The translations under genes and the position numbers were made by a program. A DNA stretch of 51,937 bases from Acinetobacter bereziniae (GTDB lineage Bacteria; Pseudomonadota; Gammaproteobacteria; Pseudomonadales; Moraxellaceae): NCBI GenBank assembly GCA_009912575.1, contig WNDP01000011.1, positions 1-51,937 of the forward strand, given 5' to 3'. How positions within the stretch are numbered: the first letter of the stretch is position 1; the number at the start of each line of letters is the position of its first letter. The notes under the pieces are model-generated. The model was not told where the DNA came from, searched no databases, and saw only the letters and a program-made list of their open reading frames with translations. This document shows, piece by piece, positions 29,387 to 34,195 of the stretch.

Positions 29387-30526
29387 ATGATTTGGATTGA
29401 AGTGCTTGCTGTAATCGTGATTTGGCTAAGCTTTTGGTCGCTGATTCCACGAGACGAATGGTGGTTTAGAGGGGCTGATTTTCCACGACTACAGATTTTA
29501 TTTGTAGGTCTGGCAGCTTTGGTGTTGTTGCTGTTTTGGGGTGAGCCTTGGGATTTAACACGTGAGATTATTTTATTTTTATTGATCGCTGCTTTAGCTT
29601 TTCAGTTGAAAATGGTTTTGCCTTATAGCTTCATTTGGAAGAAACAGGTGCAACAAGTTCAGCGAGATCAACTCGATACGGATCAACAAATTTCAGTCAT
29701 TGTATCGAATGTACTGACTCCGAATCAACAATATCATTTACTCATTGAGCAGATTGAAAAACATCAGCCTGATCTTGTACTGACCCTTGAAACGGATCAA
29801 ACATGGCAAAATGAGTTGGTCAAGATTGAAAAAGACTATCCTTATCGCGTTCCTGTTCCTTTAGACAATCTTTATGGAATGCATTTGTACAGCAAATTAA
29901 AGCTGGTGGATAGCGAGGTTAAATTTATTCTCAGCAATGAGATTCCTTCAATTCACACCACCGCTATTTTACCTTCAGGACACGCTGTACAACTGTATTG
30001 TTTGCATCCAAAGCCACCGAGTCCGACAGAAGCGAAAGACTCAACTTTACGTGATGCTGAATTACTGATTGTTGGGGATCAAATCAAAGATCTAGATGAA
30101 AGTTGTATCGTGATGGGGGATTTGAATGACGTGGCTTGGTCTAGAACAACACGTTTGTTTCAGCGCATCAGTGGTCTACTTGATCCACGCGTGGGACGTC
30201 GATATATCAATACTTTCCATGCGGATTATAAGTTCTTAAGATGGTCATTAGATCATTTATTTCACAGTACAGATTTTGCTTTGGTTCATATGGAGCGACT
30301 GCCTCATATTGGTTCAGATCATTTTCCTATTTATGTGGTTTTACAGTCGAGTCGTATTTTTGAGCAAAGCCAAGAAGAGTTGGAACAAACTGAATCTGAT
30401 GAGCAAGAGGCTCAAGAAGCTATTCAGGAAGGTATTGAAAAAGCTGAGAAAGAGGAGAAAATTGTGACAGATGAATTGGCACAAGATTATAAAATGGATA
30501 TATCATTGTCGGACAAAAAATCTTGA
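29387..30526 (+). CDS. Membrane-anchored endonuclease/exonuclease/phosphatase-fold protein
   Basis: This encodes 379 residues. Three N-terminal membrane helices (to ~85) are followed by an EEP-fold domain: VIVSNVLTPNQQYHLL, PDLVLTLETDQTW (metal Glu), YCLHPKPP, VMGDLNDVAW (Asp-Asn) and the final IGSDHFPIYVVL (Asp-His). All core catalytic residues appear present. The last ~50 residues are acidic coiled coil (EQSQEELEQTESDEQEAQEA). Such proteins are often annotated as endonuclease/exonuclease/phosphatase; the substrate could be a nucleic acid or a phospho-lipid and is unknown. The candidate small RNA promoter begins 15 bases after the stop. Confidence 0.82.
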   Translation: MIWIEVLAVIVIWLSFWSLIPRDEWWFRGADFPRLQILFVGLAALVLLLFWGEPWDLTREIILFLLIAALAFQLKMVLPYSFIWKKQVQQVQRDQLDTDQQISVIVSNVLTPNQQYHLLIEQIEKHQPDLVLTLETDQTWQNELVKIEKDYPYRVPVPLDNLYGMHLYSKLKLVDSEVKFILSNEIPSIHTTAILPSGHAVQLYCLHPKPPSPTEAKDSTLRDAELLIVGDQIKDLDESCIVMGDLNDVAWSRTTRLFQRISGLLDPRVGRRYINTFHADYKFLRWSLDHLFHSTDFALVHMERLPHIGSDHFPIYVVLQSSRIFEQSQEELEQTESDEQEAQEAIQEGIEKAEKEEKIVTDELAQDYKMDISLSDKKS

Positions 30527-30540
30527 AAATGGCGATTTTT

Positions 30541-30558
30541 TGTAAGCAATTTCTTACG
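30541..30558 (+). promoter_or_regulatory. GacA-box-like upstream activating site
   Basis: TGTAAGCAATTTCTTACG matches the GacA activating sequence TGTAAG-N6-CTTACA at 11 of 12 fixed positions. It lies about 45 bases before a plausible -10 (TAATCT, 30603-30608) with no good -35, as expected for an activator-dependent promoter. Confidence 0.7.
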
Positions 30559-30611
30559 TGGATTTAGTCTCTAAGCGGATAGTATCTGATCGTGAATCGT
30601 TTTAATCTTAA

Positions 30612-30785
30612 CTCATCGACACAAGGAATGAGAACGGAAAATCTCACTAAGGAAGACGAAGTCGATGGAGCAATCATCAAGGATTTGATGTTGGAATGGA
30701 TAACCACAGTAAAATAATAATAAGATTTGAAAGCACAACCTCATAAACCCGAGTTTTGCAGGACGCAGAACTCGGGTTATGCTTT
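30612..30785 (+). ncRNA. Candidate CsrA/RsmA-sequestering small RNA (RsmX/Y/Z- or CsrB-like)
   Basis: A ~170-base untranslated stretch holds GGA motifs at 30625, 30636, 30651, 30667, 30681, 30693, 30698 and 30761. Several are in or beside hairpin loops. TGAGA/TCTCA (30629-30633, 30642-30646) encloses ACGGAAAA. CATCAA/TTGATG (30675-30680, 30685-30690) encloses a GGAT loop. The terminal stem (30746-30759 with 30765-30778) encloses AGGAC. Known RsmX/Y/Z RNAs present GGA in loops to titrate RsmA/CsrA and are switched on by GacA, and a GacA-like box lies upstream. The 5' end is estimated from the -10 position. No open reading frame of note covers it. No homology to a known RNA could be tested. Confidence 0.7.
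30746..30778 (+). terminator. Terminator hairpin of the small RNA with a GGA loop
   Basis: A 14-bp stem (AACCCGAGTTTTGC with GCAGAACTCGGGTT, one G-U pair) closes the five-base loop AGGAC. The tail ATGCTTTATTTA is only moderately T-rich. Confidence 0.8.
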
Positions 30786-30839
30786 ATTTATAGTATATAA
30801 TTTGTGATAGACAAGATCGAAAATAAAAATTGAGTCCTT

Positions 30840-33217: not shown

Positions 33218-34195
33218 ATGAGAGATACTTACTTTGATAGTTGTAAGGCAACCCTTATATTTCTTGTGGTTCTTGGACACTTCCTCGAACGAATGATCGG
33301 ATGGAATGATCCATTCAATCATGTTTTACTAGGAACAATTTATTTTATACATATGCCTGCTTTTATCTTTATTTCAGGTATGTTTTTTAATGATAAGAAA
33401 TGGCTAAAAAATATTTTATTTTTTGTTTCGCTGTATCTGCCTTTTCAAATTTTATTCCCTGCCTTTGATGCCATATGGTCTGGTAAATTTCAGCTTAATT
33501 GGAATTTGTTTGAACGACCTTACTGGATTCTATGGTATCTGTTGGGCATGATTGCATGGACAACGCTTAGCCATTTTTTGATAAAAACAAAATTTGCATT
33601 ATTCATTACATTGGTGTTGGCAATCGTTATTGGTTTAAGTCCTTGGAACAATTATCAATATTCAATTGGACGAATTTTTACTTTTTTACCATTTTTCGTT
33701 GCTGGTGCGTTGTATGGAAAAGGGCTTTTAGCCAAAATTCAGCAAAGTCGCTTTAGCCAAGTTTTGTACCTATCTCTTTTGGGTGGGATCGCTATTTTGG
33801 TCTATTTCACGCAATTGAATCCATTTTGGCTATATGGCTGTTTGAGTTATTCCCAACTTAAAGTCAGCATACCTGTAGGTATTGGAATGAGAGTAGCATG
33901 TTTGCTTATTTCAACGCTGGGTATTTATGCAATTTTTGCGGGGGTAAAAAGTTTAAATCAACACTTTGTACGTTTGGGGCAAAATACACTGGCTGTTTAT
34001 CTATTACATGGATTTGTGGTGATGTTGGTTTCACGTTATTGGCAATTGAATTTCAATCTTTTTATTGAAGTGAGTATTTGTATCTTTTTATCTGTTTTGA
34101 CCTGCTGGATTTTACAACAGTCTATGTTTGATACCGGATTAAGAAAATTATCTTTATGGCTCATCAAGCCTGCTGAAAAATTGGGGTTAAAGTAG
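33218..34195 (+). CDS. Acyltransferase-3 family membrane protein
   Basis: This encodes 325 residues with about ten membrane helices. The opening MRDTYFDSCKATLIFLVVLGHFLE carries the conserved His of the acyltransferase-3 family, and IHMPAFIFISGMFF is the second typical block. Members O-acetylate surface sugars and are often linked to glycan or capsule modification. Near the start there is no good Shine-Dalgarno, but a 13-base palindrome TTAGATCATCTAA (33203-33215) sits directly before the ATG and could occlude or regulate initiation. Substrate unknown. Confidence 0.82.
   Translation: MRDTYFDSCKATLIFLVVLGHFLERMIGWNDPFNHVLLGTIYFIHMPAFIFISGMFFNDKKWLKNILFFVSLYLPFQILFPAFDAIWSGKFQLNWNLFERPYWILWYLLGMIAWTTLSHFLIKTKFALFITLVLAIVIGLSPWNNYQYSIGRIFTFLPFFVAGALYGKGLLAKIQQSRFSQVLYLSLLGGIAILVYFTQLNPFWLYGCLSYSQLKVSIPVGIGMRVACLLISTLGIYAIFAGVKSLNQHFVRLGQNTLAVYLLHGFVVMLVSRYWQLNFNLFIEVSICIFLSVLTCWILQQSMFDTGLRKLSLWLIKPAEKLGLK

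Follow-up and report, generated by a model that had tools for sequence, protein, structure and literature searches.

A small RNA gene of Acinetobacter bereziniae that probably encodes a Gac-controlled, CsrA-sequestering RNA

We identified, in a 51,937-nucleotide stretch of the Acinetobacter bereziniae genome (contig WNDP01000011.1; hereafter, the window), a small RNA gene that, judging from its sequence, very likely specifies a Gac-controlled, CsrA-sequestering RNA (Table 1). The features that mark a sequestering RNA are found together at this locus, namely, an upstream box, conserved GGA motifs predicted to be exposed, a terminator, and the lack of a conserved reading frame, and homologues of CsrA, GacS and GacA are all encoded in the same genome. 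The kind of RNA is known; tying a CsrA-trapping role to the window transcript, which we denote type A, is new as far as our literature searches reach.

Table 1. Features of the type A locus in the window and copies of a second boxed RNA (type B) in the same genome
Feature	Position	Strand	Remark
Endonuclease/exonuclease/phosphatase-family gene, upstream neighbour	29387-30526	+	Pfam PF03372, E 4.6e-33
GacA-type upstream box TGTAAGCAATTTCTTACG	30541-30558	+	TGTAAG-N6-CTTACG palindrome; GacA binding predicted
-10-like hexamer TAATCT	30603-30608	+	44 bases downstream of box
Small RNA gene, type A, ~172 nt	30614-30785	+	model R1 matches, fold; 5' end inferred
Outer 5' stem CAUCGAC/GUCGAUG around first GGA hairpin	30614-30667	+	local fold
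Hairpin UGAGA-ACGGAAAA-UCUCA, 5-bp stem, GGA 30636 in loop	30629-30646	+	z -3.02
GGA in AAGGAAGAC, within outer stem	30651-30653	+	kept in 95% of 82 distinct RNAs
Hairpin CAUCAA-GGAU-UUGAUG, 6-bp stem, GGA 30681 in loop	30675-30690	+	local fold
Weak third hairpin around GGA 30698	30692-30706	+	unstable folded alone
Conserved unpaired element AAGCACAACCTCAT	30731-30744	+	14 nt, just 5' of terminator
Terminator stem, 14 bp, AGGAC loop with GGA 30761, then T-rich tail	30746-30778	+	Rho-independent
Type B copy	C36:10095; L138 1574-1706	+	strong R3 match, own genome
Type B copy	C277:5889; L143 1313-1445	-	strong R3 match, own genome
Type B copy	C235:10143; L142 1574-1702	+	strong R3 match, own genome
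Type B copy	C235:34916; L189 617-749	+	strong R3 match, own genome

The preliminary description of this DNA had listed a palindrome followed after about 45 bases by TAATCT, then some 170 untranslated bases with eight GGA motifs, two of them in small hairpin loops and one in the AGGAC loop of a 14-bp terminal stem, and all of these elements are indeed present. The segment 30595-30790 folds with a z-score of -4.18, and none of 200 shuffled sequences was equally stable. The presence of eight GGA motifs, four of which are AGGA, is by itself mildly unusual (74 of 2000 dinucleotide shuffles); of all 172-nt stretches that the window contains, with those of the RNA itself counted in, 0.25% on the plus strand and 0% on the minus strand reach this number. 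The locus stands out beyond chance because a fixed combination of features persists throughout the genus. Among 82 distinct type A RNAs, the eight GGA motifs of the window copy are kept, in order, in 91, 96, 95, 79, 94, 30, 87 and 91%, and across the genus each type A RNA carries 6-10 GGA (median 8). The predicted probability of being unpaired is 0.73 for GGA versus 0.42 for other triplets, and is higher for GGA in 82 of the 82 RNAs, with the qualification that other purine triplets, which overlap GGA in part, are equally exposed (AAG 0.76, AGG 0.71).

The exact pattern TGTAAGN6CTTAC occurs once in the window, with 0.03 occurrences expected. Taken alone, the box is unspecific: at up to two mismatches, the genome contains 192 sites versus 278 for a reversed control pattern, so that the box by itself was discarded as evidence, and its position and company are what count. 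A box with at most two mismatches lies 72-74 nt 5' of the RNA start in 82 of 83 type A loci, many of these loci having been retrieved with a box-containing query and 26 of the 83 having been placed by a model that excludes the box (R1, see below). The spacing is exactly 73 nt in 80 of those loci, and all 328 length-matched control stretches lack a box at this level of similarity. In the 83rd locus (L207), the upstream DNA is only 44 bp long. The box is free of mismatches in 17 of the 82 loci, with one mismatch in 55 and two in 10, a frequent change being TGTACG in place of TGTAAG. The strict pattern matched only 1 of 30 loci, because minus-strand loci had been left unturned and most boxes are changed; once turned and aligned, all 30 loci have a box-like sequence at the same place, and many of them have a -10-like hexamer, such as TATTCT, at the aligned place. 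A simple generic sigma-70 scan did not call a promoter at TAATCT. Among three divergent loci read by eye (L102-L104), the box has two mismatches in genomes G177 and G035, and the spacing is off in G148. There are 16 one-mismatch box sites in the genome, five of which precede GGA-bearing candidates. The window has one more such one-mismatch site (33242-33259), which falls within an open frame and was attributed to chance.

Type A RNAs are widespread in Acinetobacter. BLASTN with 30535-30790 as the query found the RNA in 32 of 58 relatives, that is, in the A. bereziniae genome itself, in 31 of 36 other members of the genus and in none of 21 genomes of other genera; in a search of the genus, BLASTN found it in 152 of 176 genomes. 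Covariance model R1, built from 27 copies (alignment A1) with the box not included, matched 164 of 176 Acinetobacter species genomes at E-values up to 0.01 and left 12 without a match at this threshold; weak matches (E 0.04-0.92) obtained in genomes that lack a clear copy were not accepted. In a sample of the order, R1 matched 2 of 244 genomes, one of which is the A. bereziniae genome. The refined model R2, applied to the whole family, matched 170 of 349 genomes at E-values up to 0.1, namely, 164 from the genus and 6 of 173 from outside it, the latter being model matches in three other genera. The second genome of the order sample matched by R1, from another genus of the family (G371, E-value 0.0095), carries two copies (L086, L126), RNAs of about 130 nt, each with a box and five GGA, which suggests that the boxed GGA RNA system predates the genus. 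An exact pattern search placed the RNA in A. nosocomialis, A. pittii, A. calcoaceticus, A. lactucae, A. seifertii, A. ihumii and two Acinetobacter sp. strains (12 stretches altogether).

The preliminary description had called for a covariance search in which stems co-vary while loops and GGA are kept, and this is the pattern that we found. A1 is a MAFFT alignment of 27 of 30 loci, from which L015 and L020, being near-identical, and L030, being shortened, were dropped, and its structure was derived with RNAalifold and by manual reading of the same sequences. A2, which was fitted to this structure, consists of 83 loci (82 distinct RNAs, two rows being identical) aligned to R2 and thus leans toward the R2 structure; it omits same-place repeats, L015, L020, L030, the divergent L102-L104, L086 and L105-L108. 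In A2, 93.7% of the cells pair and 22 of 32 pairs show changes on both sides, while the loops and seven of the eight GGA stay (79-96%). The covariation measure was 0.210 in A2, where shuffled alignments gave 0.114 (none of 500 reaching the real value) and slid partners no more than 0.075; in A1 it was 0.155, compared to 0.112 in shuffles (again reached by none of 500). In A1, 8 pairs changed on both sides, a number equalled by 14 of 500 shuffles; the count of further pair types in A1 was no higher than in shuffles, 449 of 500 of which reached it.

The individual helices differ in strength. The inner five pairs of the outer 5' stem (helix 2) are 99.0% paired in A2, three of them with changes on both sides, compared to 82.7% for the outermost two pairs. 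In the hairpin around GGA 30636 (helix 3; 94.8% paired), all four modelled pairs change on both sides and the GGA is kept in 96% of the RNAs; in that around GGA 30681 (helix 4; 96.1% paired), one of five modelled pairs does so and the GGA is kept in 94%. The third hairpin (helix 5) pairs in 47.4% of the cells in A1 and 60.8% in A2, and GGA 30698 is kept in 87% despite this weak pairing. The terminator (helix 6) is 99.3% paired, with changes on both sides in 11 of 13 modelled pairs.

The RsmX, RsmY and RsmZ RNAs of Pseudomonas are short, are preceded by a palindromic box, expose GGA in loops, end in a strong terminator and come several to a genome. A palindromic upstream sequence preceding rsmX, rsmY and rsmZ is described in PMC2375449. 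The window RNA shares the box, the short length, the GGA-bearing loops, the strong terminator and the multiplicity of such RNAs in one genome; it differs in matching no Csr/Rsm family of Rfam and in carrying a conserved unpaired element before the terminator. At the gathering score, no Rfam family matched anywhere in the window, and among the seven matches over 30520-30800 at E-values up to 10, none was to a Csr/Rsm family; the window RNA is outside the Rfam sequence families of such RNAs (CsrB, RsmY, RsmX). The conserved box, its spacing, the GGA and the co-varying stems support the original proposal of an Acinetobacter counterpart of the Gac-controlled rsmX/Y/Z RNAs.

Homologues of the proteins with which such an RNA would act are encoded in the genome. 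A single match to CsrA was found, a protein of 83 residues with a C-terminal extension, identical at 50 positions within residues 1-52 to PDB chain 1y00 ('Carbon storage regulator'). For GacA, the homologue at G000:C25:11527-12159 reaches 268 bits, compared to 77 for the next best match, but stays under the NCBI curated cut-off of 280 bits. With E. coli BarA as the query, the best match was a 938-aa frame at G000:C310, a BarA/GacS-type kinase that aligns in two pieces (E 1.3e-70 and 1.3e-33; 38 and 36% identity). In L157 (516-4160, minus strand), the gacA homologue adjoins same-strand genes for a sensor kinase and an NtrC-type response regulator, which are PilS/PilR-like by manual reading.

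The transcript itself has very probably been observed. Weiss 2016 (PMC5320573) lists art68, or ABUWs074, of A. baumannii AB5075 as an RNA of 173 nt with no function given, and reports that, after 3 h in LB, six particularly abundant RNAs gave Northern blot bands of the size expected, with art68/ABUWs074 among those six in the legend of Fig. 1. The Northern probe for art68/ABUWs074, read as sense, matches at 25 of 25 positions inside the type A RNA of A. seifertii (L208) and at 24 of 25 in A. nosocomialis (L205 and L209, as well as L021, probably the same record as L205), whereas the other five published probes have at least five mismatches in all 213 loci compared. The type A copies of the A. 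seifertii/A. nosocomialis group are 169-173 nt long, compared to 173 nt for art68. By sequence, the window RNA family is thus very probably that of art68/ABUWs074, the probe having been matched in sister species and not in AB5075 itself; if this match is accepted, the RNA-seq and Northern evidence for a transcript that the preliminary description sought exists in AB5075. A word search of the main text of PMC5320573 gave 0 occurrences of csrA, csrB, rsm and gacA. Among the matches listed in the open-licence literature, ABUWs074 appeared in PMC5320573 only, the other papers being unrelated by title, and no role for art68/ABUWs074 was found in the open-licence literature searched. Nor was such a link made in the passages searched of two RNA-interactome papers and of three on A. 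baumannii CsrA, GacA or DksA, and the same literature searches yielded no results on CsrA binding or gacA mutants for this RNA.

CsrA/RsmA-regulating RNAs of Acinetobacter were reportedly predicted by Kulkarni in 2006. Section 16 of PMC5568370 (2017) mentions two RsmA-regulating RNAs of 119 and 139 nt predicted in A. baylyi ADP1, along with further Rsm RNAs that had been predicted earlier. Table 1 of PMC7366521 (2020) gives RsmX, RsmY and RsmZ for A. baumannii in brackets, which there denote genome inspection without experimental characterisation, and PMC12442408 draws a 'CsrB-like small RNA', citing the 2006 paper. The RNAs so predicted belong to the same functional class and the same genus as type A. 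Thus, the earlier claim that Acinetobacter has no described member was too strong, given these predictions and the very probable identity with art68/ABUWs074. Of the two ADP1 predictions, the one located at 25 kb on the minus strand may be placed like a type B copy of genomes G109, G196, G078 and G079, provided that these contigs have a common starting point.

Type B is a second boxed, AGGA-rich family that was reached via other boxes in the A. bereziniae genome (Table 1). These RNAs of about 130 nt contain 4-6 GGA, four or five of which are AGGA, in hairpins such as GGGAACAGGAAGUUUCCC, and the loop of their terminator also holds AGGA. The type B model R3 matched 172 of 176 genomes of the genus at E-values up to 0.001, with a best E-value of 1e-15 or lower in 165 of the 176. 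The median match count of 6 over 172 genomes is too high, because R3 also matches the reverse strand of the palindromic terminator, and strong matches were relied on instead. From a set of 91 type B matches, 46 were used, 35 below 74 bits and 10 repeats being dropped. A box with at most two mismatches lies at 72-74 nt in 45 of 45 type B loci with upstream DNA, compared to 2 of 177 controls. Type B shares with type A the box, the distance of 72-74 nt, the GGA hairpins and the terminator with a GGA loop; unlike type A, it is shorter, multicopy and devoid of the AAGCACAACCUCAU element in alignment A3. Similarity to RsmY was faint and found in two loci (17.4 and 16.2 bits, with a cut-off of 57). 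In some genomes type B copies are in tandem, with three within 1.7 kb in L188. As predicted from sequence, type A is one of several boxed GGA RNAs in its own genome.

Other boxed RNAs were noticed in the course of this work. Type C (L120, L121 and L122, in other genomes) is a boxed RNA of about 142 nt with only two GGA; the probe for ABUWs076/art70 fits it with 5-6 mismatches and 14 exact bases adjoining the terminator, which hints, less strongly than the art68 match, that ABUWs076 is a relative of these short RNAs. Type D (L129, L130 and L119, in three genomes) is a boxed RNA of 141 nt with six or seven GGA that the type A model matched weakly (E 5e-5 to 8e-5). In the A. bereziniae genome, at C317:19644 (L156 from 1045), a GacA-type box TGTACGAAATTGCTTACA precedes a candidate short RNA that has a terminator but few GGA, and to which the ABUWs077 probe comes nearest, weakly, with 6 mismatches.

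One feature of type A, the unpaired element AAGCACAACCUCAU, is unexplained by CsrA binding. Each of its columns is at least 89% conserved among the 82 distinct RNAs, with CACAACC in 77 of them; in ten divergent type A copies read by eye, CACAACC was found in eight, and CACGACC and CATAACC in the others. A plain sponge would not need this element, and its strong conservation counts against a pure sponge. That only four of the eight GGA in the window copy are AGGA, versus four or five AGGA per RNA in type B, speaks against the CsrA-sequestering reading. AAGCACAACCUCAU may act as a seed for pairing or as the site of a second protein. A type A RNA of dual function, that is, a Gac-induced CsrA sponge that additionally pairs with mRNAs or binds a second protein through AAGCACAACCUCAU, acting beside the multicopy type B, is conceivable, although we consider it rather unlikely.

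Considerably less probable is an RNA that acts chiefly by base pairing, with AAGCACAACCUCAU annealing to mRNAs close to the ribosome sites, Hfq perhaps assisting via the A-rich stretch before the element, and the GGA loops being secondary. The strong conservation of the 14-nt element before the terminator, the persistence of CACAACC in most divergent copies and the A-rich linker that precedes the element would fit such a mode, but it leaves the GacA box at a fixed spacing and the seven conserved, exposed GGA unaccounted for. Moreover, nothing convincing was found as a complement of the element in the csrA and gacA neighbourhoods, the places searched, and the main text of the Hfq RIL-seq paper mentions neither art68 nor ABUWs074, although other names may be in use there.

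That the RNA is a mere 3' untranslated region and terminator of the endonuclease/exonuclease/phosphatase-family gene is highly improbable: this gene does precede the RNA, in the same orientation, in 74 of 83 loci, but a conserved box stands between it and the RNA, eight of the nine loci without the gene in the available DNA keep the box (the ninth being L207 with its 44 bp of upstream sequence), and a band of the expected size has been reported for the matching transcript in PMC5320573. The chance that the product is a small protein, encoded by the 29-codon frame that starts from the ATG in GGAATGAGAACG behind AAGGA in the window copy, is negligible, and the coding reading was discarded, frames in these RNAs being shorter than in shuffled sequences (median 17 versus 23.5 aa; at least 25 aa in 25 of 82 RNAs versus 45% of shuffles), with one- and two-base gaps and co-varying stems.

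For the favoured CsrA-sequestering RNA, we infer the binding of GacA and of CsrA, as well as sequestration and the regulon, and propose a mode of action like that of RsmX/Y/Z and CsrB. GacS would signal to GacA, which, once phosphorylated, would bind the palindromic box and switch on the promoter, with the transcript starting near 30614. The resulting RNA would end at the terminator and display GGA in loops and single strands. As the RNA accumulates, CsrA dimers would bind its GGA loops, so that CsrA-repressed mRNAs would be freed or CsrA-protected ones removed.

In Acinetobacter, growth on rich medium reportedly requires csrA. The RNAs expected to join Gac and CsrA stood as uncharacterised genome predictions in the 2020 table of PMC7366521. 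As a prediction, this role can now be assigned to one particular transcript, which has very probably been observed before as an abundant RNA, and also to type B as a multicopy second family. The covariance models and the precisely located boxes make the link between Gac and CsrA open to direct testing in a laboratory strain, for instance A. baylyi ADP1. If the dual function of type A and the reading of type B as a second sponge hold true, the set of CsrA-buffering RNAs in Acinetobacter may be among the larger and the least described.
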